A stretch of DNA of 64,000 bases from Pseudomonas sp. MAG733B (GTDB taxonomy: Bacteria; Pseudomonadota; Gammaproteobacteria; Pseudomonadales; Pseudomonadaceae): NCBI RefSeq assembly GCF_036884845.1, contig NZ_CP145732.1, positions 434,001-498,000 of the forward strand. Reading direction: 5' to 3'. Below the pieces are notes generated by a model, which saw only the letters and a program-made list of their open reading frames with translations, was not told the origin of the DNA and did not search any database. Of the stretch, positions 3,717 to 40,443 are shown one piece after another. The first letter of the stretch is position 1; each line of letters begins with the position of its first letter. The position numbers were made by a program, and so were the translations under genes.

Positions 3717-5759
3717 ATGCCCGTTCAACACAAATTCCGACCACAACATCTTGCCTTGGCGATTGCACTTGCCTTGGGTTTTACTGAGTTTGCACAGGCT
3801 CAAGAGCCCGTGACGGAACCAGCCCCTCCCACCAGCAAATCGGCGCAGACGCTGATCAAAGAGCTCGACGCTTTCGCTAAAACCGCCACGTCCCACTCCA
3901 TCAAAAACACAGAAGACTGGGGCAAGCTTGAACTCGGCGATGCCGATGAAGTGGTCAGGGTACTGACCCCGCAAGCGTTCAATGGGGTTTTGGAGGGTGG
4001 TGCGGGTGAAAACCTCCTGCAACTCGAGGCCGCCAAAGGGGGAACGCTTGGCGAAAGTCGTCAATTCCAGCGACTGGATGTAAAGAAGGGCACATGGACG
4101 CTGACCGGTTCCGGTGACTTCAGTACGGGTGCTCTGGTTCGTGCAAAAGCGGCGCTGAACAATGAAGGACATATCGCCGGCGATGCATGGGTCCAGGGTA
4201 GCCTGAGCAATTCGGGGAGCATCGACGGTCGTGTCGACATCTACGAACAAGCAACCTTCAGTGGTCGCGGAAGCGTGGGCGCCCTCAACGTAATGGGCCA
4301 CATGCTCGTCAACCGGGCGCAAGGCGCACCCACGGTCAAAGGCGACATGGACCTCGCCGAAACGGCGGTATTGTCCTATGAAGTCCACCCGGATGGTTCG
4401 AGCGAAACTATCAAGGTCGACGGCACTGCCAGACTCGGAAATGCGACTTTGAAAGTGGTCGGTGTGGGCGATGATTTTCCGCAGACCAGCGAGTACACGA
4501 TCATTGAAGCCAGCAAGGTTGAGGGCAAGTTCGGTCATGTCGAAAGCAACCTGGCATTCATGGACGCTCATGCGAATTACGAAAAGAGCCGGGTCGGCCT
4601 GACTTATGCCCGCAACGAAGTCCCCTTTGAAGAGGTTGCAACTGATAAAAACGCCAAGGAGTTCGGGCGCAGTATTGTGACCACGGAAGCGGTTCCCACA
4701 GAACTGAATTCATCCAAAACCCCAAATGCTGCAATCAAGGCCCTGCTCGGGACCACCACAACCACCGCACCGTTGGCCATGGAGCTTCTTACTGGCGACA
4801 GCAACGCCAACCTCGCCAAAACCACGTTGAACAGCATCACCCCTGTGAGCGCCAGCATGCTCTCGGCCATGCGCCAATTGGACAGCGCAGGAAACTCCGA
4901 CAATCAAAAAAACGCTCCCCGTCTGGCCGCTGGCAGTAAAGACAACGGTCGGGTCTGGCTTCAGGCATTGGGTCATGGCGGGAAGCTTGATCGCGACTTT
5001 CAGGACCTGAAATATTCCACTGAAGGCTTGGTATTGGGCGCTGACTGGGGCGTCGGTGAGCACTGGCATCTGGGTATGATCGGCGGTAAATCCTCGACTC
5101 GCATGGACAGCCGACAGCTCGACGGCGACCTCGACAGCTGGCACCTGGGCGCCTACGCCCTGCGTCAGAGTGGCCCGGTAGCGCTGCGGCTGGGTGCGAC
5201 GTTCAGCAACCACGACGGCAGCACCAAACGCGAAGTCAGCTTCTATAGGTTCAGCGACCGCCCGAAAGGTCGTTACGATGCCAATACACAGCAAGCCTTC
5301 GCCGAGGTCGGCTACAACCTGGGACGCGGCAACGTCAGCTTCGAGCCATTCGCAAGCGTTGGCTACCAACGCTACCAGCGCGACAGCTTCACGGAAAAGG
5401 GCGGCGCGGCGGCACTGAAAGTCCACGGGCAAAGTAACGAGAATCTGAACAGCACGTTCGGGCTGCGCCTGGCGCAAATCAATGGGCTGGATAACGGCAT
5501 GCAACTGACACCGCGTTTCAGCGCAGGCTGGAAACACACCTACGGCGAACTCGACAGCTACACCCGTCAACGCTTGATAACGGGCGGCCGTGACTACACC
5601 GTTTACGGGGCGCCGCTGGATCGTGACAGTTTGTTGATCGATGCGGGACTCGACCTTCGGGTATCGACCAATAACACCCTGGGCGTCAGCCTCAATGGTG
5701 AAACCGGCAGTGACGGCCGCAGCTATGGCGTGACGGGGCAATGGCGGATGGCGTTCTGA
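3717..5759 (+). CDS. Second, short-passenger autotransporter paralogue
   Basis: I place the start at ATG 3717 (680 residues) rather than an upstream TTG at 3687, because AAAGAGG at 3701-3707 is a good ribosome-binding site and a signal peptide follows (QHLALAIALALGFTEFAQAQ). The C-terminal barrel (from about GRVWLQALGHGGK to QWRMAF) matches the preceding gene strand by strand, as do the linker segments KKGTWTLTGSGDFSTG and YARNEVPFEE. The difference is in the passenger: the long run of N-x-G-x-I repeats of the first protein is absent, leaving a short region rich in charged residues and Thr. It is probably a tandem duplicate that lost, or never gained, the helical repeats. The role is unknown; surface display or secretion is implied by the family. 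Confidence 0.87.
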   Translation: MPVQHKFRPQHLALAIALALGFTEFAQAQEPVTEPAPPTSKSAQTLIKELDAFAKTATSHSIKNTEDWGKLELGDADEVVRVLTPQAFNGVLEGGAGENLLQLEAAKGGTLGESRQFQRLDVKKGTWTLTGSGDFSTGALVRAKAALNNEGHIAGDAWVQGSLSNSGSIDGRVDIYEQATFSGRGSVGALNVMGHMLVNRAQGAPTVKGDMDLAETAVLSYEVHPDGSSETIKVDGTARLGNATLKVVGVGDDFPQTSEYTIIEASKVEGKFGHVESNLAFMDAHANYEKSRVGLTYARNEVPFEEVATDKNAKEFGRSIVTTEAVPTELNSSKTPNAAIKALLGTTTTTAPLAMELLTGDSNANLAKTTLNSITPVSASMLSAMRQLDSAGNSDNQKNAPRLAAGSKDNGRVWLQALGHGGKLDRDFQDLKYSTEGLVLGADWGVGEHWHLGMIGGKSSTRMDSRQLDGDLDSWHLGAYALRQSGPVALRLGATFSNHDGSTKREVSFYRFSDRPKGRYDANTQQAFAEVGYNLGRGNVSFEPFASVGYQRYQRDSFTEKGGAAALKVHGQSNENLNSTFGLRLAQINGLDNGMQLTPRFSAGWKHTYGELDSYTRQRLITGGRDYTVYGAPLDRDSLLIDAGLDLRVSTNNTLGVSLNGETGSDGRSYGVTGQWRMAF

Positions 5760-5784
5760 TCATCAACTGACTCAACATAAAACC

Positions 5785-5876
5785 TGTAGGAGCCGAGCTT
5801 GCTCGCGATGGCGGAGTTTCAGGCAACATTTACATCAAGTGACACTCCGCCATCGCGAGCAAGCTCGGCTCCTACA
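5785..5876. repeat. REP inverted pair
   Basis: Two near-perfect, facing copies of the motif TGTAGGAGCCGAGCTTGCTC, extended through GCGATGGCGGAGT, are separated by about 25 bases. It lies between the convergent ends of the second autotransporter and pycB and is a typical bipartite REP element of fluorescent pseudomonads. Confidence 0.9.
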
Positions 5877-5901
5877 AGTTCTGCGTCACTCACAAAAACG
5901 C

Positions 5902-5928
5902 AAAAAAAAGGGGAGCACATGCCCCCCC
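5902..5928 (-). terminator. Rho-independent terminator of the pycAB operon
   Basis: Read on the minus strand, a GC-rich stem (GGGGG ... CCCC, with a CATGTG centre) is followed by eight T residues. It is 33 bases past the pycB stop and is the natural end of the pycA-pycB transcript. Confidence 0.8.
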
Positions 5929-23354: not shown

Positions 23355-24320
23355 TCAGATCGACCGGCAGTCGGCCAGGCCTCTTTGCAACACTTCCACA
23401 TCCTGCGGCTCACTGAAAATCAACTCGACTCGCGAGTCCTGCCGCCATTCGCTGGGCTGCCACGCCAACACCGAGTTATCCAGCGCATTGGCCGATACCC
23501 AGCCACCGCTACTGTGGATAACCAGCTTCGCCCGCCGCCACACAAGGCCTTCCAGCCACCGGCCGACAAATGCCGCATCGAAGGTCTGGTTCGGATGCCA
23601 GCGCCATCCGATACTCCAACCGCCCTCCTGCGCCTGACTTAAGCAAATAGGCAGCGTCGGGTCAGTCCAGATCGCCGGGAGCTGCGCCAGTCTCTTGGGC
23701 ATCACAAAGTTATCCACACCCGCCACCGCCCGCGCCTCAAGACCGGGCAACTCGCTCAATGGCAACGCGGATTCTTGCGTCCAGTACAAAGGACGCACCG
23801 GCAACGATGCGGCGATCTGCTGGCGATCACCTTCTTCGATACCTTCGGATTTGTTCATCAGCAACAGACCCGCGCTGTTCAATGCCTCCCGTTGCGCCGC
23901 AGGCAGCGGCTTGCCGGCGAGGAGCGCCTGCGCATCGAGCACCAGCACGCTGGGTTGCACATTCAGAACGCCTTGCCATGGCGCCTCGCTCAACTGTTGC
24001 AACAGCTGCATCGGATGGCCCAGCCCCGAAGGCTCGATGAACAGTCGATCCGGCCGCGCCTTGCGCAGCAAACGACCGAGACCAATCTGAAACGGCGCAC
24101 CATTGACGCAACACAAACAGCCCCCGGCCACTTCGCCCAGTGCGATACCATCGGCGTCACGGGTCAGCAACGCGGCATCGAGGCCGATCTGGCCGAACTC
24201 GTTGATCAATACCGCCCAGCGCTCACCCGCTGGACGCTGCGCCAGCAGGTGCTTGATCAGGCTGGTTTTACCGGCACCCAATGGCCCGGCGATGACGTGG
24301 GTGGGTATGTTCTGCAACAT
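23355..24320 (-). CDS. CobW/G3E family GTPase (putative metallochaperone), short form
   Basis: ATG 24320 (MLQNIPTHVIAGPLGAGKTS) gives 321 residues; the frame stays open to 24557 without family resemblance, and no strong ribosome-binding site is seen. The G1 loop is GPLGAGKTS, and the metal-binding GGCLCCV (CxCC) and switch ESTG-like block IEPSGLGHP are present, followed by the CobW C-terminal domain. G3E GTPases deliver or sense metals, mainly zinc in this genomic setting. A second CobW gene (24708-25913) on the same strand lies one small antisense gene away, so both may respond to zinc shortage. Confidence 0.86.
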   Translation of the reverse strand: MLQNIPTHVIAGPLGAGKTSLIKHLLAQRPAGERWAVLINEFGQIGLDAALLTRDADGIALGEVAGGCLCCVNGAPFQIGLGRLLRKARPDRLFIEPSGLGHPMQLLQQLSEAPWQGVLNVQPSVLVLDAQALLAGKPLPAAQREALNSAGLLLMNKSEGIEEGDRQQIAASLPVRPLYWTQESALPLSELPGLEARAVAGVDNFVMPKRLAQLPAIWTDPTLPICLSQAQEGGWSIGWRWHPNQTFDAAFVGRWLEGLVWRRAKLVIHSSGGWVSANALDNSVLAWQPSEWRQDSRVELIFSEPQDVEVLQRGLADCRSI

Positions 24321-24346
24321 GATCGAAGGTGTCTTGGGAGGTAAGC

Positions 24347-24703
24347 ATGCGGTGGATGGGATTTTCGTTGCTACTGATTCTGCCCTGCGGCGAGGCGCTG
24401 GCCCAGGCCTGCGTCGTCCACAGCCAGGCGGAACGGCTTGACGTGAAAGTCTGCCAACAGAACCGTACCATCCCGGAAAAACTCTTCGCCGACGGTTTTT
24501 GCCAGCCGAAACTGGCCGGGCAGAAGGTCGAGGTGCAGTACGTCGACCAATGCCCAAGCGGGGCGTTCGGCGTGTGCAGCAACGCCCAAGTCGCCAATAT
24601 GCCTTACCGGCAGGATATTCACTATTACGGCGTAGCCACGGATGCAGCGTATCTGAAGCCGTTTTGCGAAGCCCAGAGCCAGGGAACCTGGCTCAAGCCT
24701 TGA
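24347..24703 (+). CDS. Small secreted cysteine-rich protein
   Basis: The start at ATG 24347 is supported by GGGAGGTAA just upstream. A signal peptide (MRWMGFSLLLILPCGEALAQ) precedes a mature part of about 98 residues with six cysteines (ACVVH, VCQQN, FCQPK, QCPSG, VCSNA, FCEAQ), enough for three disulfides. I do not recognise a catalytic motif. The gene sits between two minus-strand CobW genes with gaps of 26 and 4 bases, so any read-through from the downstream-facing CobW transcript would be antisense to it. A homologue holds a similar place next to CobW genes in P. aeruginosa. A periplasmic role linked to metal supply is an inference from context. Confidence 0.78.
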   Translation: MRWMGFSLLLILPCGEALAQACVVHSQAERLDVKVCQQNRTIPEKLFADGFCQPKLAGQKVEVQYVDQCPSGAFGVCSNAQVANMPYRQDIHYYGVATDAAYLKPFCEAQSQGTWLKP

Positions 24704-24707
24704 GGTG

Positions 24708-25913
24708 TCACGCGGCGTCTTCGTACCAAGGGCCGAACGGGTCCGGCAGCAATCGCCAGCCTTCGACACCCAGTGCCATTTCTTCATCCGTCAGCAGACA
24801 ATCATCGAGTTCGGTAGTGAGCTGCGCGAAGTCGATGTTCTGGCCGATGAACACCAGTTCCTGTCGGCAATCACCGGTGGCAGCGGTCCAGTTATCCATG
24901 ATCGCGGCGGTACTCTCCTCATCCTGCGGCCATTGATTCTTCGGCACGAAACGCCACCAGCGTCCGGCGAAACCATGGCGCATCAAACCACCGGCCTGTG
25001 ACCAGCTCCCAGCATCCATGTGCTTGCTCGCCAACCAGAAAAACCCTTTGGAGCGCAGCAGCTTTCCGTTGACCCATGGGCGGTCTATGAAGCTGAAAAA
25101 GCGTTGCGGATGGAATGGACGGCGCGCACGGTAAGCGCTGGAGGCGATACCGTACTCCTCGGTTTCCGGTACATGTGCGCCGCGCAGTTCGCGCAGCCAG
25201 CCTGGGGCCTGAGCGGCTTTTTCGAAGTCGAAATAACCGGTGTTGAGGATCTTCTCCAGCGGCACTTCACCCATGACCATCGGGATGATTTCCGCCTGGG
25301 CGTTGAGCCGTTCGAGTATCGCAATCAGCTCCTGACGCTCGCCGCTGCTGATCAGGTCGATCTTGCTGATCAAGATGACGTCGGCGAACTCGACCTGCTC
25401 GATCAACAGGTCAGTAATCGAGCGCTCGTCGTCTTCACCCAGTGTTTCGCCACGGGAAGCGAGGCTCTCGGCGGCCTGGTAGTCGAGCAGGAAATTCATG
25501 CCATCGACTACGGTCACCATGGTGTCGAGCCGGGCGATGTCGGTGAGGCTCTGGCCGTTTTCGTCGCGAAACGTAAACGTCTCCGCCACTGGCAGCGGTT
25601 CGGCAATACCGGTTGATTCGATCAGCAGGTAATCAAAACGACCTTCCCGAGCGAGCTTGCTCACTTCCTCCAGCAAGTCTTCGCGCAAGGTGCAGCAGAT
25701 GCAGCCGTTGCTCATTTCCACGAGTTTTTCTTCGGCGCGATTGAGGCTGACGTCACGCTGAACTTCACTGCCGTCGATGTTGATTTCACTCATGTCGTTG
25801 ACGATGACAGCGACCCGCAGATTTTCTCTATTACGTAGTACGTAATTGAGAAGTGTACTTTTTCCGGCACCAAGAAAGCCCGACAGGACGGTAACGGGTA
25901 GACGATTGGGCAT
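24708..25913 (-). CDS. zigA: Zinc-responsive CobW/G3E GTPase (ZigA-like)
   Basis: A 401-residue G3E GTPase. The N-terminal domain has Walker [13 protein letters not shown], the CxCC zinc site [15 protein letters not shown] and the NKxD-equivalent SKID; the C-terminal CobW_C domain includes [16 protein letters not shown]. Length, start ([13 protein letters not shown]) and the Zur-type palindrome 50 bases upstream match ZigA/YciC-type zinc metallochaperones, which are induced under zinc starvation and linked to histidine-derived zinc use in Acinetobacter. The name zigA is by similarity. Confidence 0.88.
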
Positions 25914-25960: not shown

Positions 25961-25978
25961 ATGTTATAGTATAACGAT
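25961..25978. promoter_or_regulatory. Zur box between zigA and a secreted-protein gene
   Basis: ATGTTATAGTATAACGAT contains the perfect palindrome GTTATA-G-TATAAC (25963-25975), the core of the gammaproteobacterial Zur operator. It lies 50 bases upstream of zigA and 77 bases upstream of the divergent gene at 26055, so one bound repressor could silence both. Confidence 0.85.
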
Positions 25979-26507: not shown

Positions 26508-26524
26508 TTGTTATAATATAACAT
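26508..26524. promoter_or_regulatory. Zur box upstream of folE2
   Basis: TTGTTATAATATAACAT contains GTTATA-A-TATAAC at 26510-26522, the same core as at 25963. It is about 20 bases upstream of the folE2 start and would overlap its promoter or early transcript. Confidence 0.87.
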
Positions 26525-26542: not shown

Positions 26543-27451
26543 ATGGACCTGCTCATGAATGCGCTGACGCTGCCGGATATCGCCGCGCAGGCCTCACGCC
26601 AAGCCCTGCCACTTGAGTGGGTGGGCATGTGTGGCATTGCTCTTCCTGTTTTGCTCGATGGCCAAAGACTGCCCGCAACAGCCGATGCCGGCGTAAGTCT
26701 CGATAACGGCGAGGCGCGCGGCATTCATATGTCGCGGCTCTACCTGGCGCTGGAAATGCTGGAGCAGGAAACCCTTTCGCCCGCTCTGCTTCGACGGGTA
26801 TTGCAGAGCTTCCTGAACAGTCATGCAGGACTTTCAAACAACGCTTATCTGAACATTCACACCGATTTACTGCTGAAAAGACCGGCGTTGATCAGTCCGT
26901 TGGCTGGCTGGAAGAGCTATCCCGTCAGCATCGAAGCACATCTGAAAAACGCGATGTTCCACGTGGAACTAAAAATTGACGTCCCTTATTCCTCAACGTG
27001 CCCTTGCTCAGCAGCGCTTTCCCGACAACTGATTCAGCAGCAATTCGTCGATGATTTTTCCAATCGCGCTTTGCATCACGCTGAGGTATTGGCCTGGCTC
27101 GGTTCCCCCAAGGGCATCGTCGCCACACCGCACAGTCAACGCAGCTCCGCGCAATTACGTCTGCACCTGGATGACTATCTGGATGAGTTACCGCTGATCG
27201 CGCTGATCAACGATGCCGAAGCAGCCCTCGGCACCGCCGTACAAACCGCCGTGAAGCGCGCCGATGAACAAGCCTTCGCCCTCGCCAACGGACAGAACCT
27301 GATGTTCTGCGAGGACGCTGCCAGACGCTTGAACCTGGCCCTGAAACGCTCACCCGGTATCGACGGATTTCACATACGAGTGATCCACGCTGAAAGCCTT
27401 CACGCCCACGACGCAGTCGCCGAGAGTCGATGGAACCGGGAGGTCGCATGA
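26543..27451 (+). CDS. folE2: Zinc-independent GTP cyclohydrolase IB
   Basis: The protein is 302 residues from ATG 26543, or 298 from ATG 26555 (MNALTLPDIAAQ), which may be the true start. It converts GTP to dihydroneopterin triphosphate, the first step of folate synthesis, without needing zinc and so replacing FolE when zinc is scarce. The COG1469 signature is visible: SLDNGEARGIHMSRLY, VELKIDVPYSSTCPCSAALSR with the catalytic cysteine region, HSQRSSAQL and the C-terminal FCEDAARRL. A Zur box lies directly upstream, and the ABC importer genes follow with a 4-base overlap. Confidence 0.94.
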   Translation: MDLLMNALTLPDIAAQASRQALPLEWVGMCGIALPVLLDGQRLPATADAGVSLDNGEARGIHMSRLYLALEMLEQETLSPALLRRVLQSFLNSHAGLSNNAYLNIHTDLLLKRPALISPLAGWKSYPVSIEAHLKNAMFHVELKIDVPYSSTCPCSAALSRQLIQQQFVDDFSNRALHHAEVLAWLGSPKGIVATPHSQRSSAQLRLHLDDYLDELPLIALINDAEAALGTAVQTAVKRADEQAFALANGQNLMFCEDAARRLNLALKRSPGIDGFHIRVIHAESLHAHDAVAESRWNREVA

Positions 27452-28116
27452 TCCGTTGTCAGAGTTTGCGTTGGGGCGCTCCCGGTCAGTCACTGACACC
27501 GCCCCTCGATATTGAGTTACCGAAGGGAAGCCTGACCGCCGTAATCGGCGCCAACGGCAGCGGGAAAAGCAGTCTGTTAAAAGTCATCGCCGGCCTGCAA
27601 AAGCCACTCGCGGGAAAAATCCTGGTGGACGCGCCACGCAAGGGCGGACTGTCGTTCCTGCCACAGCAGCAACATCTGGACCGCCAATTCCCTATCAGCC
27701 TCCAAGAGTTGGTCGCCGCCGGATTCTGGGGCAGCAAGCAATCGCCGGAACAACGTCGCCAACGCCTCGAATCGGTCCTCGACGATTGGTGTCTGAGTGG
27801 CCTGGAACAACGCCCGTTGATGGCCCTCTCCGGCGGCGAATTGCAACGCGCCCTGCTCGCTCGCTTGAGTCTCGCTGAAGCACCTCTGCTGCTACTCGAC
27901 GAACCGCATGCCGCGCTGGATGAGCTCGGTCAGGTGCTGCTGTGGAAACACCTCCACGCTTGGCATGCAGAAGGCAGAACCCTGGTTGTCGTGTGCCACG
28001 ATCTAGCCGCCGTTCGCCAGCACATTCCACACACACTGCTGATCAAAAGCAGTGGCTGCATCTTTGGGGCGAGCAGCGATCTGATCCACCAGCAGCCGCA
28101 AGCGCAGGTAGCCTGA
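27448..28116 (+). CDS. Zinc-type ABC transporter, ATPase subunit
   Basis: It starts at ATG 27448 inside the ATGA overlap with folE2, with GGGAGG upstream, and encodes 222 residues. All ABC motifs are present: Walker A IGANGSGKSSLL, Q-loop FLPQQQH, signature LSGGELQRALLARLSLAEAP, Walker B LLLLDEPHAALD and the switch histidine in VVVCHD. It resembles ZnuC/AztA of the manganese/zinc importers. It powers the permease encoded next. Confidence 0.9.
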   Translation: MIRCQSLRWGAPGQSLTPPLDIELPKGSLTAVIGANGSGKSSLLKVIAGLQKPLAGKILVDAPRKGGLSFLPQQQHLDRQFPISLQELVAAGFWGSKQSPEQRRQRLESVLDDWCLSGLEQRPLMALSGGELQRALLARLSLAEAPLLLLDEPHAALDELGQVLLWKHLHAWHAEGRTLVVVCHDLAAVRQHIPHTLLIKSSGCIFGASSDLIHQQPQAQVA

Positions 28117-28982
28117 TGCTCGCCGCCGCTCAACTCTGGCAACCGTTCCACGAGTTCGTGTTCATGCGTCGGGCGCTGCTCGGCGGCTTGGTACTGGCCT
28201 GCAGTACAGCACCGCTGGGTGTGTTTCTGATCCTGCGACGGATGAGCCTGATCGGCGATGCGGTGGCACACGGCATTTTGCCTGGCGCGGCATTGGGGTT
28301 CTGGTTTGCCGGTTTGAGCCTACCCGCACTCACCCTCGGCGGCCTCGGTGCCGGCCTGAGCATGGCCGGACTCGCTGCCTGGATCACCCGTCGCACCGGC
28401 CTGCGAGAGGACGCCAGCCTCGCGGCGATCTACCCGATTTCCCTGGCCAGCGGTGTGCTGATTCTCGGCATCGCCGGCAAACGTCTGGACTTGTTGCACC
28501 TGCTGTTCGGCTCGGCATTGGCAGTCGATGGCCCGACCCTCACGGGCATGCTTTGGGTCTGCGGAGTGAGCCTGATCGCCGTGCTGCTGATTTACCGCCC
28601 CCTGTTGCTCGACACCCTCGACCCACTCTTTCTGCGAACCGTGAGCCGCCTCGGCCCCCTGGCCCATGGCGTCTTCCTGACGCTGGTGGTGCTGAATCTG
28701 GTGATCGGTTTCCAGGCCATCGGTGCCTTGATGGTGGTCGGCCTGATGATGCTGCCCGCGGCCGCGTCGCGCTTCTGGAGTCGCCGCTTGCCAGTATTGA
28801 TAGCCATTGCCGCGCTGCTCGGCAGCCTCTCGGTGTGGCTCGGTTTGTTGCTGTCGTTCCATTACTCGCTACCCAGCGGCCCGGCCATCGTGCTGGTCGC
28901 TGGCGGTTGGTATCTGCTGTCCGTGGTGTTCGGGCCGGTGCACGGTTTGCTGCGTCGGCCACCTTTGCTCACATCCCAATGA
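28116..28982 (+). CDS. Zinc-type ABC transporter, permease subunit
   Basis: The stop of the ATPase gene and the start overlap (TGATG, ATG 28116), giving 288 residues; in-frame codons upstream belong to the ATPase region. It has eight or nine membrane helices of the ABC-3 family (ZnuB/AztB/MntB), with recognisable RALLGGLVLACSTAPLGVFLILRRMSLIGDAVAHGILPG and GALMVVGLMMLPAAASRFW. It forms the inner-membrane channel of the importer. Confidence 0.9.
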   Translation: MLAAAQLWQPFHEFVFMRRALLGGLVLACSTAPLGVFLILRRMSLIGDAVAHGILPGAALGFWFAGLSLPALTLGGLGAGLSMAGLAAWITRRTGLREDASLAAIYPISLASGVLILGIAGKRLDLLHLLFGSALAVDGPTLTGMLWVCGVSLIAVLLIYRPLLLDTLDPLFLRTVSRLGPLAHGVFLTLVVLNLVIGFQAIGALMVVGLMMLPAAASRFWSRRLPVLIAIAALLGSLSVWLGLLLSFHYSLPSGPAIVLVAGGWYLLSVVFGPVHGLLRRPPLLTSQ

Positions 28983-28993
28983 GGTGTTTCCCG

Positions 28994-29869
28994 ATGCGCG
29001 CTTTACTCGTGCTGTTCAGTTTGATGCTGTCGATGTCGTTGTCTGCCGCTGAAAAACTTCAGGTGGTCACCAGTTTCAGCATCCTCGCCGACATGACGCA
29101 TCAGGTCGGTGGTGATCACATTCAGATCACCAACATGGTCGGCCCCGACGCCGATGCCCACACATACGAGCCGACACCAGACGACGCGCAAGCCCTGTTG
29201 AAGGCAAAACTGATCATCAAGAACGGCCTGGGATTCGAACCATGGCTGGATCGCCTGGTGACCAGTACCGAAACGAAAGCGCCAGTGATCAGCGCAAGCC
29301 ACGGCGTCATTCCGCGCGATCTGGAGGAAGACGGCGAAACCGTTCCCGATCCGCACGCCTGGCACAATCTGGCGAACTCCGAGTTGTACGTCAGCAACAT
29401 CACCAAGGCATTGATCGCTGCCGATCCGGCCAACAAGGACGACTACCAGCGCAACAGTCAGGCTTACCTGAAACAGATCCATGCCCTGCTCGCGGAGGCC
29501 AAGGCCAAACTCGGTTCGTTGCCACCGGGCAACCGCAAGATCGTAACCTCCCATGATGCCTTCGGTTACCTCGGTCAGGCCTATGGCATCGACTTCATGG
29601 CTCCGCAGGGGCTGTCCACCGAACGCGAACCTTCGGCTAGCGAAGTCGCTGCGTTGATCACTCAGATCCGTCAGGCCAAGGTCAAAGCGGTGTTCATGGA
29701 AAACATCAAGGACGCGCGTCTACTCAAGCAGATCGCCGACGAAAGCAGCGCCCGGATTGGCGGCACCCTGTACTCGGATGCGCTCGCGGCGAGTGGTCCG
29801 GCGAGTACCTTTACCGGGTTGTTCGAATACAACCTCAATACCCTGTACAACGCGTTGAGCAAGCCATGA
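28994..29869 (+). CDS. Zinc-type ABC transporter, periplasmic binding protein
   Basis: ATG 28994 with GAGG upstream gives 291 residues; ATG 28979, overlapping the permease stop, would add five. A signal peptide (MRALLVLFSLMLSMSLSAAE) precedes a cluster A-I (cluster 9) binding protein. Likely metal ligands are the histidines in DAHTYEP, PDPHAWHN and TSHDAFG and the aspartate in GTLYSDAL, the His-His-His-Asp set known from AztC/ZnuA rather than the His-His-Glu-Asp set of manganese proteins. The long His-rich loop of ZnuA is missing. With folE2 and the Zur box, zinc import is the likely role. Confidence 0.9.
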   Translation: MRALLVLFSLMLSMSLSAAEKLQVVTSFSILADMTHQVGGDHIQITNMVGPDADAHTYEPTPDDAQALLKAKLIIKNGLGFEPWLDRLVTSTETKAPVISASHGVIPRDLEEDGETVPDPHAWHNLANSELYVSNITKALIAADPANKDDYQRNSQAYLKQIHALLAEAKAKLGSLPPGNRKIVTSHDAFGYLGQAYGIDFMAPQGLSTEREPSASEVAALITQIRQAKVKAVFMENIKDARLLKQIADESSARIGGTLYSDALAASGPASTFTGLFEYNLNTLYNALSKP

Positions 29870-30018: not shown

Positions 30019-30927
30019 ATGATCCAGATCACCCTGCCCGATGGTTCATTGCGAGAGTACGATCAACCGCTGTCCGTACATGAAGTTGCCGCGAGTATTG
30101 GCCCCGGGCTGGCCAACGCTGCGGTAGCGGGTCGGGTGGACGGCGTGTTGGTGGACTGTGAATTCATGATCCGGGCCAGTGCTCGGGTCAGCATCGTGAC
30201 GCCACAAGAGCCCGACGGATTGGAGATCCTGCGACGCTCCTGTTCGCTGATGCTGGCGATGGCGGTCAAGCAACTGCACGCCCATGCGCAATTGCGCACG
30301 GGCTCGGTACTGGGTGACGGGTTCTATTGCGAGTTTGATGTCGAGCGCCCGTTATCGTCGACTGATCTGCCGCTGATCGAAGCACGCATGCAATCACTGG
30401 CGGCGACCAATCATTCGATCCGTCGACGCCAGACGCCCTCTGCGTCGACGCATTCCGAGAACCTGTCGTTGTATCGCCTCGGCGACACCGAGTATTTGAC
30501 GACAGGACCGCATGTGCCCACCACCAAGGTGTTGCAGGCATTTGCCCTTGATCACATCAACGGCACCTTGCAACAACGCATCTATGGCACTTGCTGGTCC
30601 AGCCACCAGGAACTGCAGCAGTGGCGCCTGCCGCCCCACGTGATGGTCGTCAGCATGGATGACCGGCAGACAACTTACGCCCATGAGGTCACCGAGCGTC
30701 TGCGCCGCAGCGGTGTGCGCGCCCTCGCAGATCTGCGCAACGAAAAGGTCCGCTACAAGATTCGACATCACAGTCAGACGGTGCCGTACCTGGTGGTGGT
30801 CGGCGAGAAGGAAAAGGCTGGCGAATTTGTCAGTGTGCGCAGTCGCAGCGGGGAGGATTTCGGCAGGATGAAGGTTGATGCGGTGTGTGAGTGGTTGAGC
30901 TCAATAGGCGCGCTCCCACGGGGATAA
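30019..30927 (+). CDS. Threonyl-tRNA synthetase paralogue lacking the catalytic core
   Basis: A 302-residue intact frame made of ThrRS pieces. Residues 1-60 are a TGS domain (MIQITLPDGSLREYDQPLSV). Residues about 70-202 match the editing domain (TGSVLGDGFYCEFDVERPL, TTGPHVP, LQQRIYGTCWSS). Residues about 204-297 match the anticodon-binding domain (PPHVMVVSMDDRQTTYAHEV, ADLRNEKVRYKIRHHS). The roughly 290-residue class II catalytic domain between the last two, with motifs 1-3 and the zinc ligands, is absent. Three of four editing-site residues are replaced (Leu77, Met81 and Thr161 for His, His and Cys; His165 kept). It cannot charge tRNA. The location behind the zinc importer suggests a zinc-related regulatory or tRNA-binding role, which is inference. 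Confidence 0.87.
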   Translation: MIQITLPDGSLREYDQPLSVHEVAASIGPGLANAAVAGRVDGVLVDCEFMIRASARVSIVTPQEPDGLEILRRSCSLMLAMAVKQLHAHAQLRTGSVLGDGFYCEFDVERPLSSTDLPLIEARMQSLAATNHSIRRRQTPSASTHSENLSLYRLGDTEYLTTGPHVPTTKVLQAFALDHINGTLQQRIYGTCWSSHQELQQWRLPPHVMVVSMDDRQTTYAHEVTERLRRSGVRALADLRNEKVRYKIRHHSQTVPYLVVVGEKEKAGEFVSVRSRSGEDFGRMKVDAVCEWLSSIGALPRG

Positions 30928-34432: not shown

Positions 34433-36343
34433 TCAGGCCTCGTCTTTTAGCTTGAGCAATGGCTCCTGAAACCGCAGCAGGCGCCCGGCATTCCCCAGGA
34501 CCAACAAAGTGCTGAGGTTATGCAGCAACGCGGCAATCATCGCCCCCGCCGCGCCGAGCCAGCCGAAGGCTGCGAAGGCAACGATTGCCAGCGTCCAGCC
34601 CAGACCGATAATCACGTTGACCTGCAAGGTTTGCCGGCACTGGCGACTCAAGCGCACGCAGGTGCCGAGGCGGCGCAAGTCACTGCCGATCAATACGATG
34701 TCGGCCGAGGCCAACGCGATATCCGCACCACCCGCGCCCATGGCAACGCCGACCACGCCGGCCTTGAGGGCAAGCGAATCATTGATCCCGTCGCCCACCA
34801 CCATAGGCCTGAATCCGTTACCGATTTCTTTCAGCACGCGATTGAGCTTGTCCTCGGGCAAAGCCTGCGCCTCGACATCGCTGATGCCGACATCCCGCGC
34901 CAGCGTGTGCGCCACACTTTGCCGGTCACCGGTGAGCAACAGTTGCCGACCCAAGCCGAGATCGCGCAATTCGTTCAGGGCAAACCTGGCTTCGGGTTTG
35001 ACGCTGTCGGCCAGTAACAGCCAGGCGAGGAATTCTCTATTGAGCGCCAGCCCGGCAATCGGGCCGTCGTGTTCGGGAACGGCTGAGGTGGGAATCTGCA
35101 ACTGAGCGAACAGTTCTGGTCGTCCGAGTGCGGCCTCGCCCTGCTCCGTCATCGCCACCACGCCCAGCCCCTGACGCTCATGAATATCTGTGAGTAGCAG
35201 AAAATGTTCCTGCGTCACCAGCCCGGCCAACGCGCGGCTGACCGGATGGCTGCTGGCGGAACCGAGACTGGCGGCCAGTTTCAGCACGTGGCTACGATCC
35301 TCCAGCGGACTGTCAATCGATTGCAGGCGCAACGTGCCGAAGGTCAGGGTCCCGGTCTTGTCGACCACCAGCGAGGTCAGGTCCGCCAGCTCTTCGAGAA
35401 ACGCCGAACTGCGGATCAGAATCCCGTGCCGCGCCGCCACCGCCACTCCAGCGATCGCGGTCGCCGGGGCCGACAACACCAGCGCACACGGACACGCCGC
35501 CACCAATACCGCGAGCATCGCCTGGGCATCGTTGGTGATGAACCAGGTCACCGCCGCCAACAGCAACACCAGCACCATGTAACTTCCGGCGTAGCGTTCG
35601 AGCAATCGCGTGATCGGTGGCTTGGAGCGCTCGGCGTTTTGCATCAATGCGATGACTTTACCGAGGGTCGATTCGTGGCCGGTACGGGTCACTTCGATGC
35701 GCAGCAAGCCATCGAGATTGATCGCACCACCGAACACCGACATGCCGACACCGGCCTCCATCGGTACCGATTCGCCGGTAATTGAAGCCGTGTCGAGACT
35801 CGCCTGCCCGGACAAAACCCGGCCATCCGCCGGTACACGATCACCGGCGCGCACTTCCACATGGTCACCCGCCTTGAGCGTGCCGTTGTCGACTTCGATG
35901 ATGGAACCGTCGGCCTGGAGCTTTCGTGCGTGGCTGCGCGTCAGTTTGCCGAGGGCATGAATGGCCTCCTGCGAACCGATCACGCTGCGCTCTTCCAGCA
36001 CATGGCCGAAGATCATGATGATCGGCAGCAAGGCCGCCGTGAGCAGATCGCCAGTGGCCCAGGCACCGAGCATGGCCAACGCGATCAACTGGTCCGTGAT
36101 GCCGTGCAAACTCGGATAGCGCAGGCTGTACCAGGCCGAACGCATAACCGGCACGGCCACCAACAATGAAGCAAAACCCAGCAGCAATTGGCTGACGCCG
36201 GTCTGCTCCGGCGACAACCAGCGCCAGGCCAGACCGAGCGCCAACAAGCCAAGTGCGAGCATGGCCAAGGTCAGTTGGCGGGCGGCGCTGCGTTGTTCGG
36301 CCGAGGACAACAGGCTCGGTGCAGCGGCGGTTTGCGCAGTCAT
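34433..36343 (-). CDS. P1B-type heavy-metal ATPase without HMA domain
   Basis: A 636-residue P-type ATPase. It has the actuator TGES (ASITGESVPM), the metal-site CPC in the sixth helix (VAACPCALVL), the phosphorylation site DKTGTLT, the nucleotide-site SSHP and hinge GDGINDS. There is no N-terminal CxxC metal-binding domain. The last helix pair has HNLSTLLVLGNAGRLL in place of the DxG motif of ZntA or the MSxxS of copper pumps; it is closer to the HNxSS pattern of the mycobacterial CtpC group, linked to manganese or zinc. It is last in a four-gene operon with SPFH proteins (4-base overlap). Metal and direction are unproven; zinc is suggested by context. Confidence 0.9.
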   Translation of the reverse strand: MTAQTAAAPSLLSSAEQRSAARQLTLAMLALGLLALGLAWRWLSPEQTGVSQLLLGFASLLVAVPVMRSAWYSLRYPSLHGITDQLIALAMLGAWATGDLLTAALLPIIMIFGHVLEERSVIGSQEAIHALGKLTRSHARKLQADGSIIEVDNGTLKAGDHVEVRAGDRVPADGRVLSGQASLDTASITGESVPMEAGVGMSVFGGAINLDGLLRIEVTRTGHESTLGKVIALMQNAERSKPPITRLLERYAGSYMVLVLLLAAVTWFITNDAQAMLAVLVAACPCALVLSAPATAIAGVAVAARHGILIRSSAFLEELADLTSLVVDKTGTLTFGTLRLQSIDSPLEDRSHVLKLAASLGSASSHPVSRALAGLVTQEHFLLLTDIHERQGLGVVAMTEQGEAALGRPELFAQLQIPTSAVPEHDGPIAGLALNREFLAWLLLADSVKPEARFALNELRDLGLGRQLLLTGDRQSVAHTLARDVGISDVEAQALPEDKLNRVLKEIGNGFRPMVVGDGINDSLALKAGVVGVAMGAGGADIALASADIVLIGSDLRRLGTCVRLSRQCRQTLQVNVIIGLGWTLAIVAFAAFGWLGAAGAMIAALLHNLSTLLVLGNAGRLLRFQEPLLKLKDEA

Positions 36344-37398
36344 TGTGCAGCTCCCTGAATGATCAGGCGGGAATCGTCTTTCGGGTTGACAGTGGTCACC
36401 GAGCCAGCCTGATTCAGAATTTTCGGCATCCGCTCACGGTAGATTCGCAGCAGCATTTGCGGATCGGTGCCTTGTTGTTGAGCTTTGGCCAAACTCAATA
36501 CCGTGGCCGTGTCAGCCGACGCTTTGGCCAACCGTTCACTCGCCTGGGCATGGGCGACTTGCAACGTGCGGTCGGCTTGCTCGTTGGCGGTCTGGGTCAG
36601 TTTCTCGGCTTCGGTGCGTGCATTGGCCACGGCTTTGTCAGCCTGCTGGCTGGCCGTCAGTACCGCGTTGAACGCGTTCACCGCCGGGCCGGGCAAACTC
36701 GATTGCACGTCGACCCGCGCCACTTCGATCCCCAGCCCTTGTCCGGTTGCGGCCAACTCCGCGAGCCGTTGATTGATGCCTTGCACAAGATCACCGCGCA
36801 GGCGTTCGCGTCTTTCAGCCGATTTATTATCGGCGCCGATCAGCTCCGGACGTGCAACCAGAATGGTGTCCAGATCACGCGCCGCCGTCAGTGCCACAGC
36901 GCTGCGGGTGACGAGGCGATCCAGTGCCGGCAGAACATGTTCACTTTGCAGCACGAAGGCGTAGGGATCGGTCACCTTGTAGAAAACCCGCACATCGAGT
37001 TGCACTACCCCGGCATCACCGGTCAACAGGTAACCGGACCCCGCCAGGGCATCGCTGATCGGAGTGGCAAAACTGGCCACGCGATCGGCCTGCAACGCCA
37101 CATCACTGCGCAGAAGATTTTCCACCCGGCGCTCGATCACCCGGTCCCCTGCCGGCAACAAAATCACTTGTTCAAACGGTCGCGGCCAGGCCAACAACAA
37201 CCCGGCATTCTGGATGCGATCCAGCGCACCGAAGTGCAAAACCACTGCGCGATTCTGCGGATCGATTTGCCGAACATTGGAGAATGCCCACCCCAACGCA
37301 GCCAATACCGTGACCGCGTACAAGGCGAGAAAGGCCAGGCGCCCGGCTTGAATCCAGGGGCTGCTCAGCTCATTTGTTCCACGTGGAACCAAACTCAT
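36340..37398 (-). CDS. SPFH-domain membrane protein, HflC-like
   Basis: A 352-residue protein with one N-terminal membrane helix (AGRLAFLALYAVTVLAALGWAF), then a prohibitin/SPFH domain (VRQIDPQNRAVVLHFGALDR ... LDVRVFYKVTDPYAFVLQSE) and a long Ala/Glu/Gln-rich coiled coil (TASQQADKAVANARTEAEKL). By analogy with HflC the SPFH part would face the periplasm and assemble into a ring or cage. It overlaps its neighbours by four bases on both sides. The true hflK-hflC pair that modulates FtsH normally sits near hfq, so this is a dedicated paralogue. Confidence 0.87.
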   Translation of the reverse strand: MSLVPRGTNELSSPWIQAGRLAFLALYAVTVLAALGWAFSNVRQIDPQNRAVVLHFGALDRIQNAGLLLAWPRPFEQVILLPAGDRVIERRVENLLRSDVALQADRVASFATPISDALAGSGYLLTGDAGVVQLDVRVFYKVTDPYAFVLQSEHVLPALDRLVTRSAVALTAARDLDTILVARPELIGADNKSAERRERLRGDLVQGINQRLAELAATGQGLGIEVARVDVQSSLPGPAVNAFNAVLTASQQADKAVANARTEAEKLTQTANEQADRTLQVAHAQASERLAKASADTATVLSLAKAQQQGTDPQMLLRIYRERMPKILNQAGSVTTVNPKDDSRLIIQGAAQ

Positions 37399-38435
37399 GG
37401 CTGCGATCCGGACTTGTTATCGAGGCTCGGCGGACCGTCAACCAACACCCGGAACGGCGCGGCATCGGTGCGCAGAATCAGTTTTGTCCCCGGTGTAACG
37501 ACCGTGCCCAAGGTGTCGAGCGAACGCAGCAAGTTGTAAAGCTGCGGCGAGCCCGCATAAGCACGACCATAAATCTGTGCAGCTTCAACGCGGGACTGCG
37601 CCTCGATGTCAGCCGCTTTGACGGTGGCGTCGGCTTGCACGATTCTCGCATCACGCTCGGCGGCGGAACGTATTTGTGCGGCTTCACGTTTGCCGATGGC
37701 GGTGCGTTCGGTGGCGATGGTTTCGCGCTCGGCACGCATGCGATCGACCGTGGCGGTGAGCGTGACTGATGGCAACGTCAGCCGCTCGATGCCGACTTGC
37801 AGCACACGCACGCCGTAAGTGGTAAGTAGCTGCTGATCGATTTGCTGACGCAGCTGCGCTTCAAAATCGGCGATACGCACCTGACTGGCGTCGGTGTTCA
37901 CCAAGTTGGCCAGATCGAAACTGCTGGCCGTGGTTTCCAGTGCCGAACCGATAAAGGTGCGAATCTGCCGCGCGGCTTCGTCCGGCTGATTCTGCACGGC
38001 GCGCATGAAGCGCTGCACATTGTCCGGATCGCCTTGCACCTGCCACGCCACATAAGCCTGAACGATGATGCGCAGACCATCCCGCGTGCCCACGTCCTGC
38101 AAACCGCTGGACGTGGTGCGCAATCGCAGGTCCACCGGGATCGCCGCTTCGAACGGCGCTGGCCAACGCCAGCCAAGACCCGGCTCCAGAAGCACCCGCG
38201 ACGGGTTACCAAATCGGGTAATCACCGTGGCCTCCCCCGACCTCACTTGCACCAGGCTCGCGGCTGCAACGGCGAAGGCCACCAGCAACGCTGCCCAACC
38301 CATGCGCCGCCAGGGAAACGGACCGGCTTCTTGCGGATCACCGTGATGGTGATGATGGTGACCGTGGTGATGCCCGCCATGGCCATGATCGTGGCCGGCG
38401 TGATCATCGTGATCATGAGTGTGCGACTGGCTCAA
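37395..38435 (-). CDS. SPFH-domain protein with histidine-rich N-terminal tail
   Basis: It starts at TTG 38435: AGGAG lies seven bases upstream and no ATG or GTG offers an alternative before the tail. Residues 5-31 contain 16 histidines with Asp and Gly (HTHDHDDHAGHDH, then HHH and HHHHHH blocks), a plausible zinc, nickel or cobalt buffer. One membrane helix follows (MGWAALLVAFAVAAASLVQV), then an SPFH domain (ATVITRFGNPSRVLLEPGLGWRWPAPFE, typical HflK-like turn) and a coiled coil. With HflK-like topology the tail would be cytoplasmic, next to the cytoplasmic mouth of the ATPase encoded two genes later. The metal-binding role is inference. Confidence 0.88.
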   Translation of the reverse strand: MSQSHTHDHDDHAGHDHGHGGHHHGHHHHHHGDPQEAGPFPWRRMGWAALLVAFAVAAASLVQVRSGEATVITRFGNPSRVLLEPGLGWRWPAPFEAAIPVDLRLRTTSSGLQDVGTRDGLRIIVQAYVAWQVQGDPDNVQRFMRAVQNQPDEAARQIRTFIGSALETTASSFDLANLVNTDASQVRIADFEAQLRQQIDQQLLTTYGVRVLQVGIERLTLPSVTLTATVDRMRAERETIATERTAIGKREAAQIRSAAERDARIVQADATVKAADIEAQSRVEAAQIYGRAYAGSPQLYNLLRSLDTLGTVVTPGTKLILRTDAAPFRVLVDGPPSLDNKSGSQP

Positions 38436-40417
38436 TGGGCAGCTCCTGGCTGGGCGGTTTGACGCGACGGCGCAGGGTCAACCGGCAGCGTGAAGGTACG
38501 GAGGTCGATGGTCGGCGCATTGCTGCTGCCGCCCAGACGATGATCAAGGATCAGCAGTTTGGCGTTGGCCAAGCCTTGGGAAAGTTGACTGAGGTACTGC
38601 TCCAGCACAAAGGCCTGACCGGCACTGGCGTAAGCCTTTTGCTCGGCGCTGAATTTCAGGTCAGTCGCTTGTGCACTGGCGCTGATTTCACGGGCACTGG
38701 CCGTTGCCTGATCGCGAGCGATGCTGGCCTGCAACTGCGCCTGGTTGGTGGCTTCGGCCGCCGCTCCGCGCTCACGGGAGATCAACGCCTGGGCACCAAT
38801 CTGCGCCGCTTGCACACCGTGATAGGCATTGGCTGCCCCGGCCGGTGGATGAATCGCTTCGACCACCGTGGCGAGAATCTCCACGCCGCTGTCGAGCTTC
38901 TGCAGATCCGCCTGCACGGCCCTGCCAATTTCTTCAGCGAGCCCGACCCTGTCCTCACCGAGCAAACCATCGAGGGTGCGCGAAGCGAAATCGTGAACGA
39001 GAATTCGGCTGGCGGTGCTGCGAATCAGTGTCGGCACATCCGCACTGTTGTAAGTCGCCGCCAACGCTGCCTGATCGCTCAGGCCAATGCGGTAGACGAA
39101 GCGCACGTCCATGTTGACGATCTGAAAACTCTGCTTGTCGGCACGGCTGCTGGCGATGACCTGGGATTTGTCGTTCACATGACTGGCGTCCCACAAGCGA
39201 TTGGCCGTGATCGGCGCCGGGCCTTCTGCGGGGGCAACCTGTATCGGTGCGGAAGCATCGCCGACACTGGTGGCCAATTCGTGGACCACGCCATTCTCGA
39301 CGCTCAGTACCCGGCCCAATGGCCAGGGTAAACCCGCATGCAAACCGGGGCCGAACACCGCCAGCGGTTTGCCGAAACGCTCGTAGATACCGCGCCCTTG
39401 CAACGGTATTTCGTGGATGCCGGTCAGGGACCAACCAACGATTGCTACCACCGCCAGCACCGGCAAAAACGCCCGGCGCATGTAAGTGAATGCCCAGATC
39501 TGCCGCAGATCGATGCCGAAGCGGTTGTGCAGTTCGTGCTGCAATGCCAGCAATGGCTGCGGTGGCCAACGCAGCATGTCCGCGACAAAGCTGCGCGCCA
39601 GCAACGTCGGTTCGATCTGTTCACGGCGAGGACTGAATAGTGACAACACGGCGCGCAACAGCAACTCCACTGCAACCAGTCCCGGCAGCAGACCGATCAG
39701 TACCGCCAGCCGCACCGGCCAGACTGAAGCTTCGCTGCCGAACAACAGGCACAACGCACCAAGCACGAGGCTGATGATCGATACGCGAGACAGCTGCGCC
39801 AATGCTCCGGCTTCGGGCCACGCGGCCGTGTTTTCCTGAGCCAGTTGGCGCTCCAGCACCAGCAAACCGAAAGCCAGCAACAACGCCAGGGCCGCGCCGA
39901 CAGTGGCCGACAAGCCCAGCGCTGCGGGTGGCAAACCAAGGTTCCAGACCTGTTTGACGCTGAGCAAAGCCACTAAAGCCCAACCGCCCAGCCACAGCGT
40001 CGGCGCACCGATTTGTTTGATCAGGTTCAGCCAGCGCTGGCCCATGCGATCCAACAGCCGTTCATACCAACCCGGCGGCGCCTCGACTGCTTGCTCGACG
40101 ACCACCGACAGCACGGGATTCATCGCCCGCGCTCGCCATTGCGTCACCCACCAGGCAGATTGCAGACCAGCCACCAACACCAGCAACGCGGCGCTTTGGT
40201 TGAACAACAGCGCCGGCCAAAGTGACTGCGGCGCAAACAGCCCGACAAAGAACCCTAGCACCAGCCCCACTGCCGCCAGCGCACCGAAGCCAATGGCGAA
40301 CAGACGCAAACGCCGCCCTTGAAAAACCGCCTGCTGGAAGCGCGGCAGCTCCGCTACCTGCGCCCCCTCTACATCGAGATCGACTTGCATACCACCCCAG
40401 TGCTCAGCGTTGCTCAC
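38432..40417 (-). CDS. Multi-pass SPFH-domain protein, HflK-like
   Basis: First gene of the operon, up to 661 residues. The frame opens with GTG 40417, but ATG 40390 (MQVDLDVEGAQVAEL), preceded by GGGGTGG, is an alternative start. Unlike HflK it has an extended membrane region of about six helices in residues 40-330 (for example LRLFAIGFGALAAVGLVLGF and WLGGWALVALLSV). An SPFH domain follows (IPLQGRGIYERFGKPLAVFGPGLHAGLPWPLG ... NMDVRFVYRIGLSDQAALA), then a coiled coil and a proline-rich end. It overlaps the next gene by four bases. The extra membrane region could anchor a multi-protein platform. Confidence 0.85.
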   Translation of the reverse strand: MSNAEHWGGMQVDLDVEGAQVAELPRFQQAVFQGRRLRLFAIGFGALAAVGLVLGFFVGLFAPQSLWPALLFNQSAALLVLVAGLQSAWWVTQWRARAMNPVLSVVVEQAVEAPPGWYERLLDRMGQRWLNLIKQIGAPTLWLGGWALVALLSVKQVWNLGLPPAALGLSATVGAALALLLAFGLLVLERQLAQENTAAWPEAGALAQLSRVSIISLVLGALCLLFGSEASVWPVRLAVLIGLLPGLVAVELLLRAVLSLFSPRREQIEPTLLARSFVADMLRWPPQPLLALQHELHNRFGIDLRQIWAFTYMRRAFLPVLAVVAIVGWSLTGIHEIPLQGRGIYERFGKPLAVFGPGLHAGLPWPLGRVLSVENGVVHELATSVGDASAPIQVAPAEGPAPITANRLWDASHVNDKSQVIASSRADKQSFQIVNMDVRFVYRIGLSDQAALAATYNSADVPTLIRSTASRILVHDFASRTLDGLLGEDRVGLAEEIGRAVQADLQKLDSGVEILATVVEAIHPPAGAANAYHGVQAAQIGAQALISRERGAAAEATNQAQLQASIARDQATASAREISASAQATDLKFSAEQKAYASAGQAFVLEQYLSQLSQGLANAKLLILDHRLGGSSNAPTIDLRTFTLPVDPAPSRQTAQPGAAH

Positions 40418-40424
40418 ATGGCAA

Positions 40425-40443
40425 TTCGTTACGATATAACGAA
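40425..40443. promoter_or_regulatory. Zur-like palindrome upstream of the SPFH/ATPase operon
   Basis: TTCGTTACGATATAACGAA has a 7-base inverted repeat (TTCGTTA/TAACGAA) and matches the Zur core GTTATA-N-TATAAC with two changes in one half (GTTACG) and a perfect other half. It lies 8-35 bases upstream of the possible starts. It is weaker than the boxes at 25963 and 26510, so zinc control of this operon is probable but unproven. Confidence 0.6.

Follow-up and report, generated by a model that had tools for sequence, protein, structure and literature searches.

hmtA-type loci and the cluster in Pseudomonas sp. MAG733B

The closest described relative of the four-gene cluster examined here, which lies in a 64,000-nucleotide stretch of the Pseudomonas sp. 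MAG733B genome (contig NZ_CP145732.1, positions 434,001 to 498,000; hereafter the window, with positions counted from its first letter), is the hmtA cluster PA2434-PA2439 of P. aeruginosa. Papers are cited by PubMed Central number and for the portions of their text that were covered. PA2435 is the P-type ATPase HmtA, PA2437 and PA2438 belong to the HflC family and PA2439 to the HflK family, and PA2435 and PA2437-PA2439 were up 5.6- to 14.4-fold in a znuA mutant (PMC4542158). The same paper predicted a Zur site for the cluster, a weak one, and Zur with zinc shifted the PA2439 promoter in an electrophoretic mobility shift assay (PMC8531726). The proteins of PA2435 and PA2437-PA2439 were raised without zinc, significantly for PA2438 and PA2439 (PMC11761036), PA2437-PA2439 were slightly up under N-acetylcysteine, which was interpreted as zinc starvation (PMC9431628), and calprotectin raises HmtA (PMC8557868). 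HmtA is treated as a zinc and copper importer in PMC8456098, where the covered portion makes no mention of Hfl or SPFH proteins.

The window cluster has the same make-up of three HflK/HflC-family genes, which carry SPFH domains, and a P-type ATPase. The first promoter of the zinc-starvation-induced hmtA cluster binds Zur, and a predicted Zur-type box stands in front of the window cluster. The original prediction, made from the letters of the window, knew of no described system with this composition, a view that the hmtA cluster overturns. From gene content we infer that the window cluster is an hmtA-type locus and its ATPase an ortholog of PA2435, and we consider both this identity and regulation by zinc scarcity very likely. 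The composition is already known; in the literature covered, including few subscription papers, nothing was found on a role of the SPFH proteins alongside the pump, and the portion of PMC13220708 that was covered does not deal with an hmtA-type locus. The CDF-like fold, the exchange of histidine tails and the portable cassette described below are new as far as our searches reach. The genes of the cluster are as follows.

38432..40417, minus strand: SPFH1, 661 amino acids with a GTG start (652 if the ATG at 40390 is used), from the list of open reading frames; six-helix block at residues 30-260, linker, transmembrane helix 316-334, SPFH domain 340-552
37395..38435, minus strand: SPFH2, 346 amino acids, TTG start; His-rich N-terminal tail, transmembrane helix 46-64, HflC-side SPFH domain
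36340..37398, minus strand: SPFH3, 352 amino acids, ATG start; transmembrane helix 21-39, HflK-side SPFH domain
34433..36343, minus strand: HmtA-type P1B-ATPase, 636 amino acids, ATG start; CPC in M4, GHxLEE in M2, HN in the last helix

Transcription runs from SPFH1 through SPFH2 and SPFH3 to the ATPase, with 4-nucleotide overlaps at all three junctions (TTGA at SPFH1/SPFH2, ATGA at SPFH2/SPFH3 and ATGA at SPFH3/ATPase). Three SPFH genes and a heavy-metal P-type ATPase joined by such overlaps had been proposed beforehand, and the open reading frames, junction reads, Pfam and NCBIfam all bear this out: Band_7 is above the Pfam cut-off in all three SPFH proteins, as members of the SPFH superfamily should be, and the ATPase has the Pfam E1-E2_ATPase and Hydrolase domains and exceeds the cut-offs of the NCBIfam heavy-metal P-type ATPase models TIGR01525 and TIGR01512. 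Pfam found no HMA domain in the window ATPase. Translation of SPFH1 probably begins at the ATG at 40390 (residue 10), because P0338 starts there, the alignments with diverged orthologs begin at residue 10 and GGGGTGG precedes this codon at a short distance; P0338 (source label P. aeruginosa, with an internal repeated stretch) is 57% identical to SPFH1. The 6.65-megabase (Mb) host genome has three further Band_7 proteins besides the cluster trio, namely a pair at 1.095 Mb taken as the true HflK/HflC and a single protein at 0.678 Mb, presumably QmcA.

The window and P. aeruginosa-type loci differ in two respects. In genus g185, taken as the aeruginosa group, SPFH2 and the ATPase each bear a His tail in 10 of 10 loci, whereas the window has one on SPFH2 only. 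Seven of these 10 loci also have an extra secreted-looking open reading frame of about 150 amino acids between SPFH3 and the ATPase, at the position of PA2436 (L154, 6642-7094; also L155, L156, L160, L161, L162 and L172), which is absent from the window.

Co-occurrence and transfer of the four genes

SPFH2 orthologs (at least 74% identity) were found in 71 of 119 genus genomes and ATPase orthologs (at least 75%) in the identical 71, leaving out three matches at 27-28% and one second match in G264; SPFH2 without the ATPase, a combination that would have spoken against the original prediction, was seen in 0 of the 119. The ATPase occurred in 28 of 198 family genomes, in 3 of 19 genera. The full set of four genes, in order, was present in 20 of 20 regions taken from the genus and family genomes. 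The same held for 79 of 80 named Pseudomonas loci, the exception (L110) being a cut contig; these loci are the best 80 of 468 ATPase relatives, none titled P. aeruginosa. No SPFH gene was found within up to 1.5 kb on each side of the nine nearest non-orthologous ATPases (L008-L016, 33-38% identity).

A tblastn search of SPFH2 against 72,556 plasmids gave 21 records, of which 10 lie at 67-71% identity (seven from Rhizobium and one each from Burkholderia, Paraburkholderia and Klebsiella). Six of these 10 copies were examined (H1, H2, H4, H7, H9 and H10, covering all four genera), and every one had the four genes in the same order. The surroundings differed among the four annotated plasmid regions; in the Paraburkholderia one, a zinc ABC transporter lies some 4 kb upstream. 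The cassette is thereby shown, as far as gene content and order can tell, to be transferred as one unit, in line with the identical presence of SPFH2 and the ATPase in the genus sample and with the earlier view that the genes belong together. Among 369 class genomes only one, that of the window itself, had SPFH1 at E values up to 1e-18, and the chromosomal spread of SPFH1 in that sample is therefore narrow; plasmid and protein searches gave SPFH1 relatives in Burkholderia, Paraburkholderia, Trinickia and Rhizobium. The four-gene unit occurs in three proteobacterial classes and is therefore testable as a unit. A low-GC family member (L159, region GC 37.6%) also carries the cassette, at 47-75% protein identity and with the His tails kept.

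Counts across loci refer to a set of 106 having all four genes, which excludes L110 and includes L084 (SPFH2 N-terminus broken in the record), L065, L080 and L101 (SPFH3 short as read) and L051, L103, L106 and L123 (SPFH1 start misplaced). At least 73 of the 106 have exact 4-nucleotide overlaps at all three junctions, a lower bound given that the start-choice rule misplaced SPFH1 in the last four, and the overlaps occur across loci more than chance would give. From 44 chosen loci, pieces were taken from 40 (not from those same four), and the window and 36 of the 40 were used; the protein set was 52 of at least 240 listed proteins, chosen for spread.

Zur-type boxes and zinc-scarcity neighbours

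The case for zinc begins with three Zur-type boxes, one in front of the cluster and two in front of zinc-scarcity genes.

40428..40440, minus strand: Zur-type operator GTTATATCGTAAC upstream of SPFH1, predicted from sequence
25963-25975: Zur-type box just upstream of ZigA, a motif match
26510-26522: Zur-type box just upstream of FolE2, a motif match
24708..25913, minus strand: ZigA zinc chaperone GTPase, above the NCBIfam NF038288 cut-off
26543..27451, plus strand: FolE2, above the NCBIfam NF010200 cut-off

FolE2 is a zinc-independent GTP cyclohydrolase. The operator GTTATATCGTAAC agrees with the Pseudomonas Zur consensus GWWAYWNNNTWHCR (PMC10393844), and exact matches to GTTATANNNTAAC occur at three places in the 6.65-Mb genome, all inside the window (25963, 26510 and 40428). 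Allowing up to one mismatch, GTTATANYRTAAC gave 5 strand matches at three window places versus 0.08 expected, and 0 of 100 shuffles reached 5. A reversed-pattern control on the whole genome gave 6 matches versus 5 for the motif, so the count alone is meaningless and it is the clustering in one window that serves as evidence; a related pattern with one mismatch added four further places genome-wide, with 21 matches for its control versus 9. Upstream of the cluster, 84 of 100 regions (window included), which come from related loci and are not independent, scored at least 10 of 12 motif positions, versus 28 of 2000 shuffles. The metal context that had been proposed for the cluster is thus narrowed specifically to zinc scarcity by the Zur-type boxes, the ZigA and FolE2 neighbours and the published hmtA data.

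His-rich tails and the ATPase

SPFH2 has 16 His among its first 33 residues, exactly as the original prediction had it for one SPFH protein. Across the 106 loci the median is 16 His in the first 60 residues, and the tail sequence varies while its His richness is kept. Fewer than eight His were counted at three loci only: the broken record L084, Klebsiella L182 (two) and Rhizobium L188 (seven). A His tail on the ATPase, defined as at least four His in 45 residues, is present in 21 of the 106, these being the 10 of 10 g185 loci, three Rhizobium, Klebsiella, Paraburkholderia, L159 and five genus genomes; it is absent from the window and from all 79 named Pseudomonas loci. Klebsiella has the ATPase tail only and Burkholderia L183 the SPFH2 tail only, and a His-rich N-terminal tail on SPFH2, the ATPase or both is found in 105 of the 106, with neither only in L084. 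By hydropathy and charge, both tails are predicted to be cytoplasmic and the SPFH domains periplasmic. The exchange of tails between SPFH2 and the ATPase is the best hint in the sequences that the two may share a job.

The ATPase carries the features of a P1B-ATPase, namely the E1-E2 ATPase domain, the DKTGT phosphorylation loop and a CPC-type motif in M4. Conserved in 33 of 33 diverse cassette ATPases are C284-P-C286, H114/E117/E118 in GHxLEERS, D84, D99 and H608-N609. P1B-2 pumps (ZntA/CadA) are defined by a Lys and an Asp in the last two helices, the positions that matter in ZntA, and P1B-4 pumps (CoaT) by an SPC motif in M4. The CPC of the window ATPase matches the ZntA structure 4umv and stands where 7qbz, which we take to be a CoaT-type pump (its record says cadmium translocating P-type ATPase), has SPC. 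Its last helix, LLHNLST, is closer to that of 7qbz (LVHEGST) than to that of ZntA (LADTGAT), and the ZntA Lys and Asp positions are occupied by Thr584 and His608. A P1B-2 exporter was rejected on the replaced Lys and Asp and a P1B-4 pump on the CPC, and from these motifs the ATPase is therefore neither plain P1B-2 nor plain P1B-4. Since it differs from ZntA at His608 and Thr584, its metal may differ as well.

The SPFH proteins and the six-helix block of SPFH1

In the HflK/HflC-FtsH complex the SPFH domains sit on the same branches as those of the window trio, and S1, S2 and S3 form separate clades with S2 on the HflC side of the tree. We infer that SPFH1 and SPFH3 come from the HflK side and SPFH2 from the HflC side, and the best Foldseek matches of the SPFH1 model are HflK/C structures. 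The window differs from that complex in having three SPFH genes and not two, a P1B-ATPase partner, six extra helices, a His tail and scores below the equivalog cut-offs (NCBIfam HflK/HflC models; SPFH3 94.3 and SPFH1 55.1 bits versus 159.4, SPFH2 93.4 versus 134.4). By analogy, the mycobacterial pairs of PacL and a P-type ATPase may be comparable, likewise joining a P1B-ATPase to a membrane-platform partner; PacL is not an SPFH protein. Another SPFH pair is tied to an ion transporter on a Vibrio alginolyticus plasmid (L250, 4847-8230), as hflK-hflC-nhaA with 4- and 8-nucleotide overlaps, and the Vibrio records H13, H14 and H18 list hflC and nhaA under the match.

The extra block of about six helices foreseen for the first SPFH protein came out as six by hydropathy (40-58, 66-84, 136-154, 169-187, 209-227 and 235-253, followed by the usual SPFH helix at 316-334). 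In two AlphaFold models, the top VIA-align rows for this block are CDF chains, the second model having a mean predicted local distance difference test score (pLDDT) of 66, and the modelled helices resemble a CDF zinc-transporter domain. With the block modelled alone, Foldseek placed the glutamate transporter GltPh first (E 0.51, probability 0.07) and ZnT3 second (E 0.55, probability 0.84). The CDF metal site is made of acids and His in helices 2 and 5; no conserved Asp, Glu or His was found in these helices among 53 SPFH1 sequences, and one Cys (223) is present in 30 of the 53. Compared with the CDF zinc transporters (YiiP, ZnT/SLC30), the SPFH1 block would thus be CDF-like by modelled fold, with neither detected sequence homology nor a conserved metal site, and unlike them it is fused to an SPFH domain.

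A comparable operon lies on an Aquibium oceanicum plasmid (L187), with HflK-, HflC- and HflK-like genes and a heavy-metal P-type ATPase, and the first SPFH protein it encodes (4358-5905) is a fusion in which a CDF domain recognised by Pfam (4.5e-25) precedes an HflK-like SPFH domain. It differs from the window in that the SPFH proteins of Aquibium stand nearer to true HflK/HflC, its ATPase has HMA domains and a peptidyl-prolyl isomerase gene lies in between. Grouping the Aquibium CDF-HflK protein with SPFH1 was rejected (p-AU, approximately unbiased test, 0.002; the group was named after the tree was seen). Among 22 matching plasmid records only Aquibium was covered over at least 80%, and in phylum genomes (342 of 398 matched) only the HflK part was covered among the matches listed. 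A long frame in L194, considered as another CDF-HflK fusion, is an ordinary HflK.

Proposed mechanism and alternatives

The best reading of the window cluster, at what we judge to be even chances, is a Zur-controlled zinc-scarcity transport complex of the hmtA type. Zinc shortage would lead to the module being made, and SPFH1, SPFH2 and SPFH3 would assemble into a mixed membrane ring or dome that holds the ATPase, their SPFH domains lying in the periplasm. The CDF-like block of SPFH1 would lie next to the pump within the membrane and partner or guide it, not act as a working antiporter, because the usual CDF metal ligands are unconserved, and the His tails would buffer zinc at the cytoplasmic mouth of the pump. 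Taken with the published HmtA claim, net zinc movement would most likely be from the periplasm to the cytosol. We lean towards a physical complex of the four proteins, and regard import by the pump as evenly poised: import fits Zur control and the published claim, and export fits the usual P1B direction.

Several points weigh against this reading. On the published side, hmtA mRNA was low and zinc gave no repression (PMC8531726), and a review has Zur binding every uptake promoter but that of hmtA, asks for confirmation of the importer claim of Lewinson 2009 and states that P1B-ATPases 'usually act as efflux pumps' (PMC10393844); its exception for the hmtA promoter does not agree with the PA2439 promoter shift in PMC8531726. 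As for the sequences, the upstream regions of L159 and of the six plasmid copies gave no Zur-type box scoring above shuffles, and the grouping of S1 with S3 bears a long-branch warning. The CDF likeness rests on predicted models, with Foldseek E values that are non-significant in both (0.12 for the first model, 0.55 for the second). With hhalign, the SPFH1 block (53 rows, of which the program's filter kept 50) gave 0.3% probability against 30 CDF sequences and 0.1% against four CDF rows (reversed control 0.05%; the positive control, Aquibium CDF, gave 99.9% but is a member of the target set), so the CDF claim is one about fold. PF01545 was also not among the 25 Pfam families listed for 53 SPFH1 orthologs at E up to 5.

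Exporters carry metal-binding tails on the cytoplasmic side, and the predicted topology of both His tails would suit a pump that works outwards. In such a scheme, the tails of SPFH2 and the ATPase would gather scarce cytosolic zinc and the pump would feed the SPFH-enclosed periplasmic space, loading certain periplasmic zinc proteins, which is the direction that P1B-ATPases usually take (PMC10393844). A pump that took zinc out of the cytosol would sit badly with Zur control and induction by zinc scarcity, however, and overexpression of HmtA reportedly raised cell zinc and copper (PMC10393844, citing Lewinson 2009), and we consider export fairly unlikely. The original prediction had the tail collect metal and pass it to the pump, implying export; as Zur control suggests uptake or re-allocation, this is only one of two directions.

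A bolder form of the transport-complex reading makes the cluster a single zinc-uptake machine. Kdp is a P-type ATPase that imports only with a partner of another transporter fold, and in a Kdp-like arrangement the SPFH dome would enclose the P1B pump while the CDF-fold domain of SPFH1 supplied or redirected the metal path, and a similar solution would have arisen separately in Aquibium. We find this proposal rather unlikely as a whole.

The kinship of the trio to HflK/HflC, and its published naming as FtsH modulators (PMC4542158, PMC11761036, PMC9431628), could instead mean that the three proteins, as HflK/HflC relatives used in zinc starvation, regulate FtsH, a zinc-dependent protease, with the ATPase merely co-regulated. 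All three SPFH proteins fall below the HflK/HflC equivalog cut-offs, though, and plasmids carry the trio together with the ATPase, while the gene lists of the four annotated plasmid regions contain no ftsH (the PLSDB tables are incomplete). The identical presence of SPFH2 and the ATPase across 119 genomes and a His tail borne by either of the two also speak against it, making this explanation quite unlikely.

Detoxification, in which the pump would expel the copper, cobalt, nickel or cadmium brought in by derepressed zinc importers during zinc hunger, could draw on the kept CPC with His608 and Thr584 at the ZntA Asp and Lys positions and on the reported handling of copper by HmtA (PMC10393844, PMC8456098), but it is very unlikely given that HmtA overexpression reportedly caused zinc and copper hypersensitivity, not resistance (PMC10393844), that HmtA reportedly does not transport silver or cadmium (PMC8456098), and that the genes nearby serve to save zinc.

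Metal import by a P1B-ATPase has HmtA as its reported case, which rests on overexpression as summarised in PMC10393844. If HmtA normally works within an SPFH assembly of its own that includes a CDF-like domain, studies of the pump by itself would have looked at only part of the machine, and the direction of transport would become directly testable. SPFH cages would then also gain a further job, that of housing an ion pump.

Other zinc-related genes

Further genes in the window lie near ZigA and FolE2.

27430..29869, plus strand: AztA/AztB/AztC-like metal ABC transporter genes, the best NCBIfam models all being below their cut-offs

A second CobW/COG0523-type GTPase adjoins ZigA (23355-24557), and a ThrRS-like fragment of 302 amino acids (30019-30927) lies near the zinc-scarcity genes, its NCBIfam match being to the C-terminal end only. 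Elsewhere in the same genome, near 6497612 (L179), a one-mismatch Zur-type site, one of the four further places mentioned above, lies near the genes for a His-rich secreted-looking protein and an ABC ATPase.

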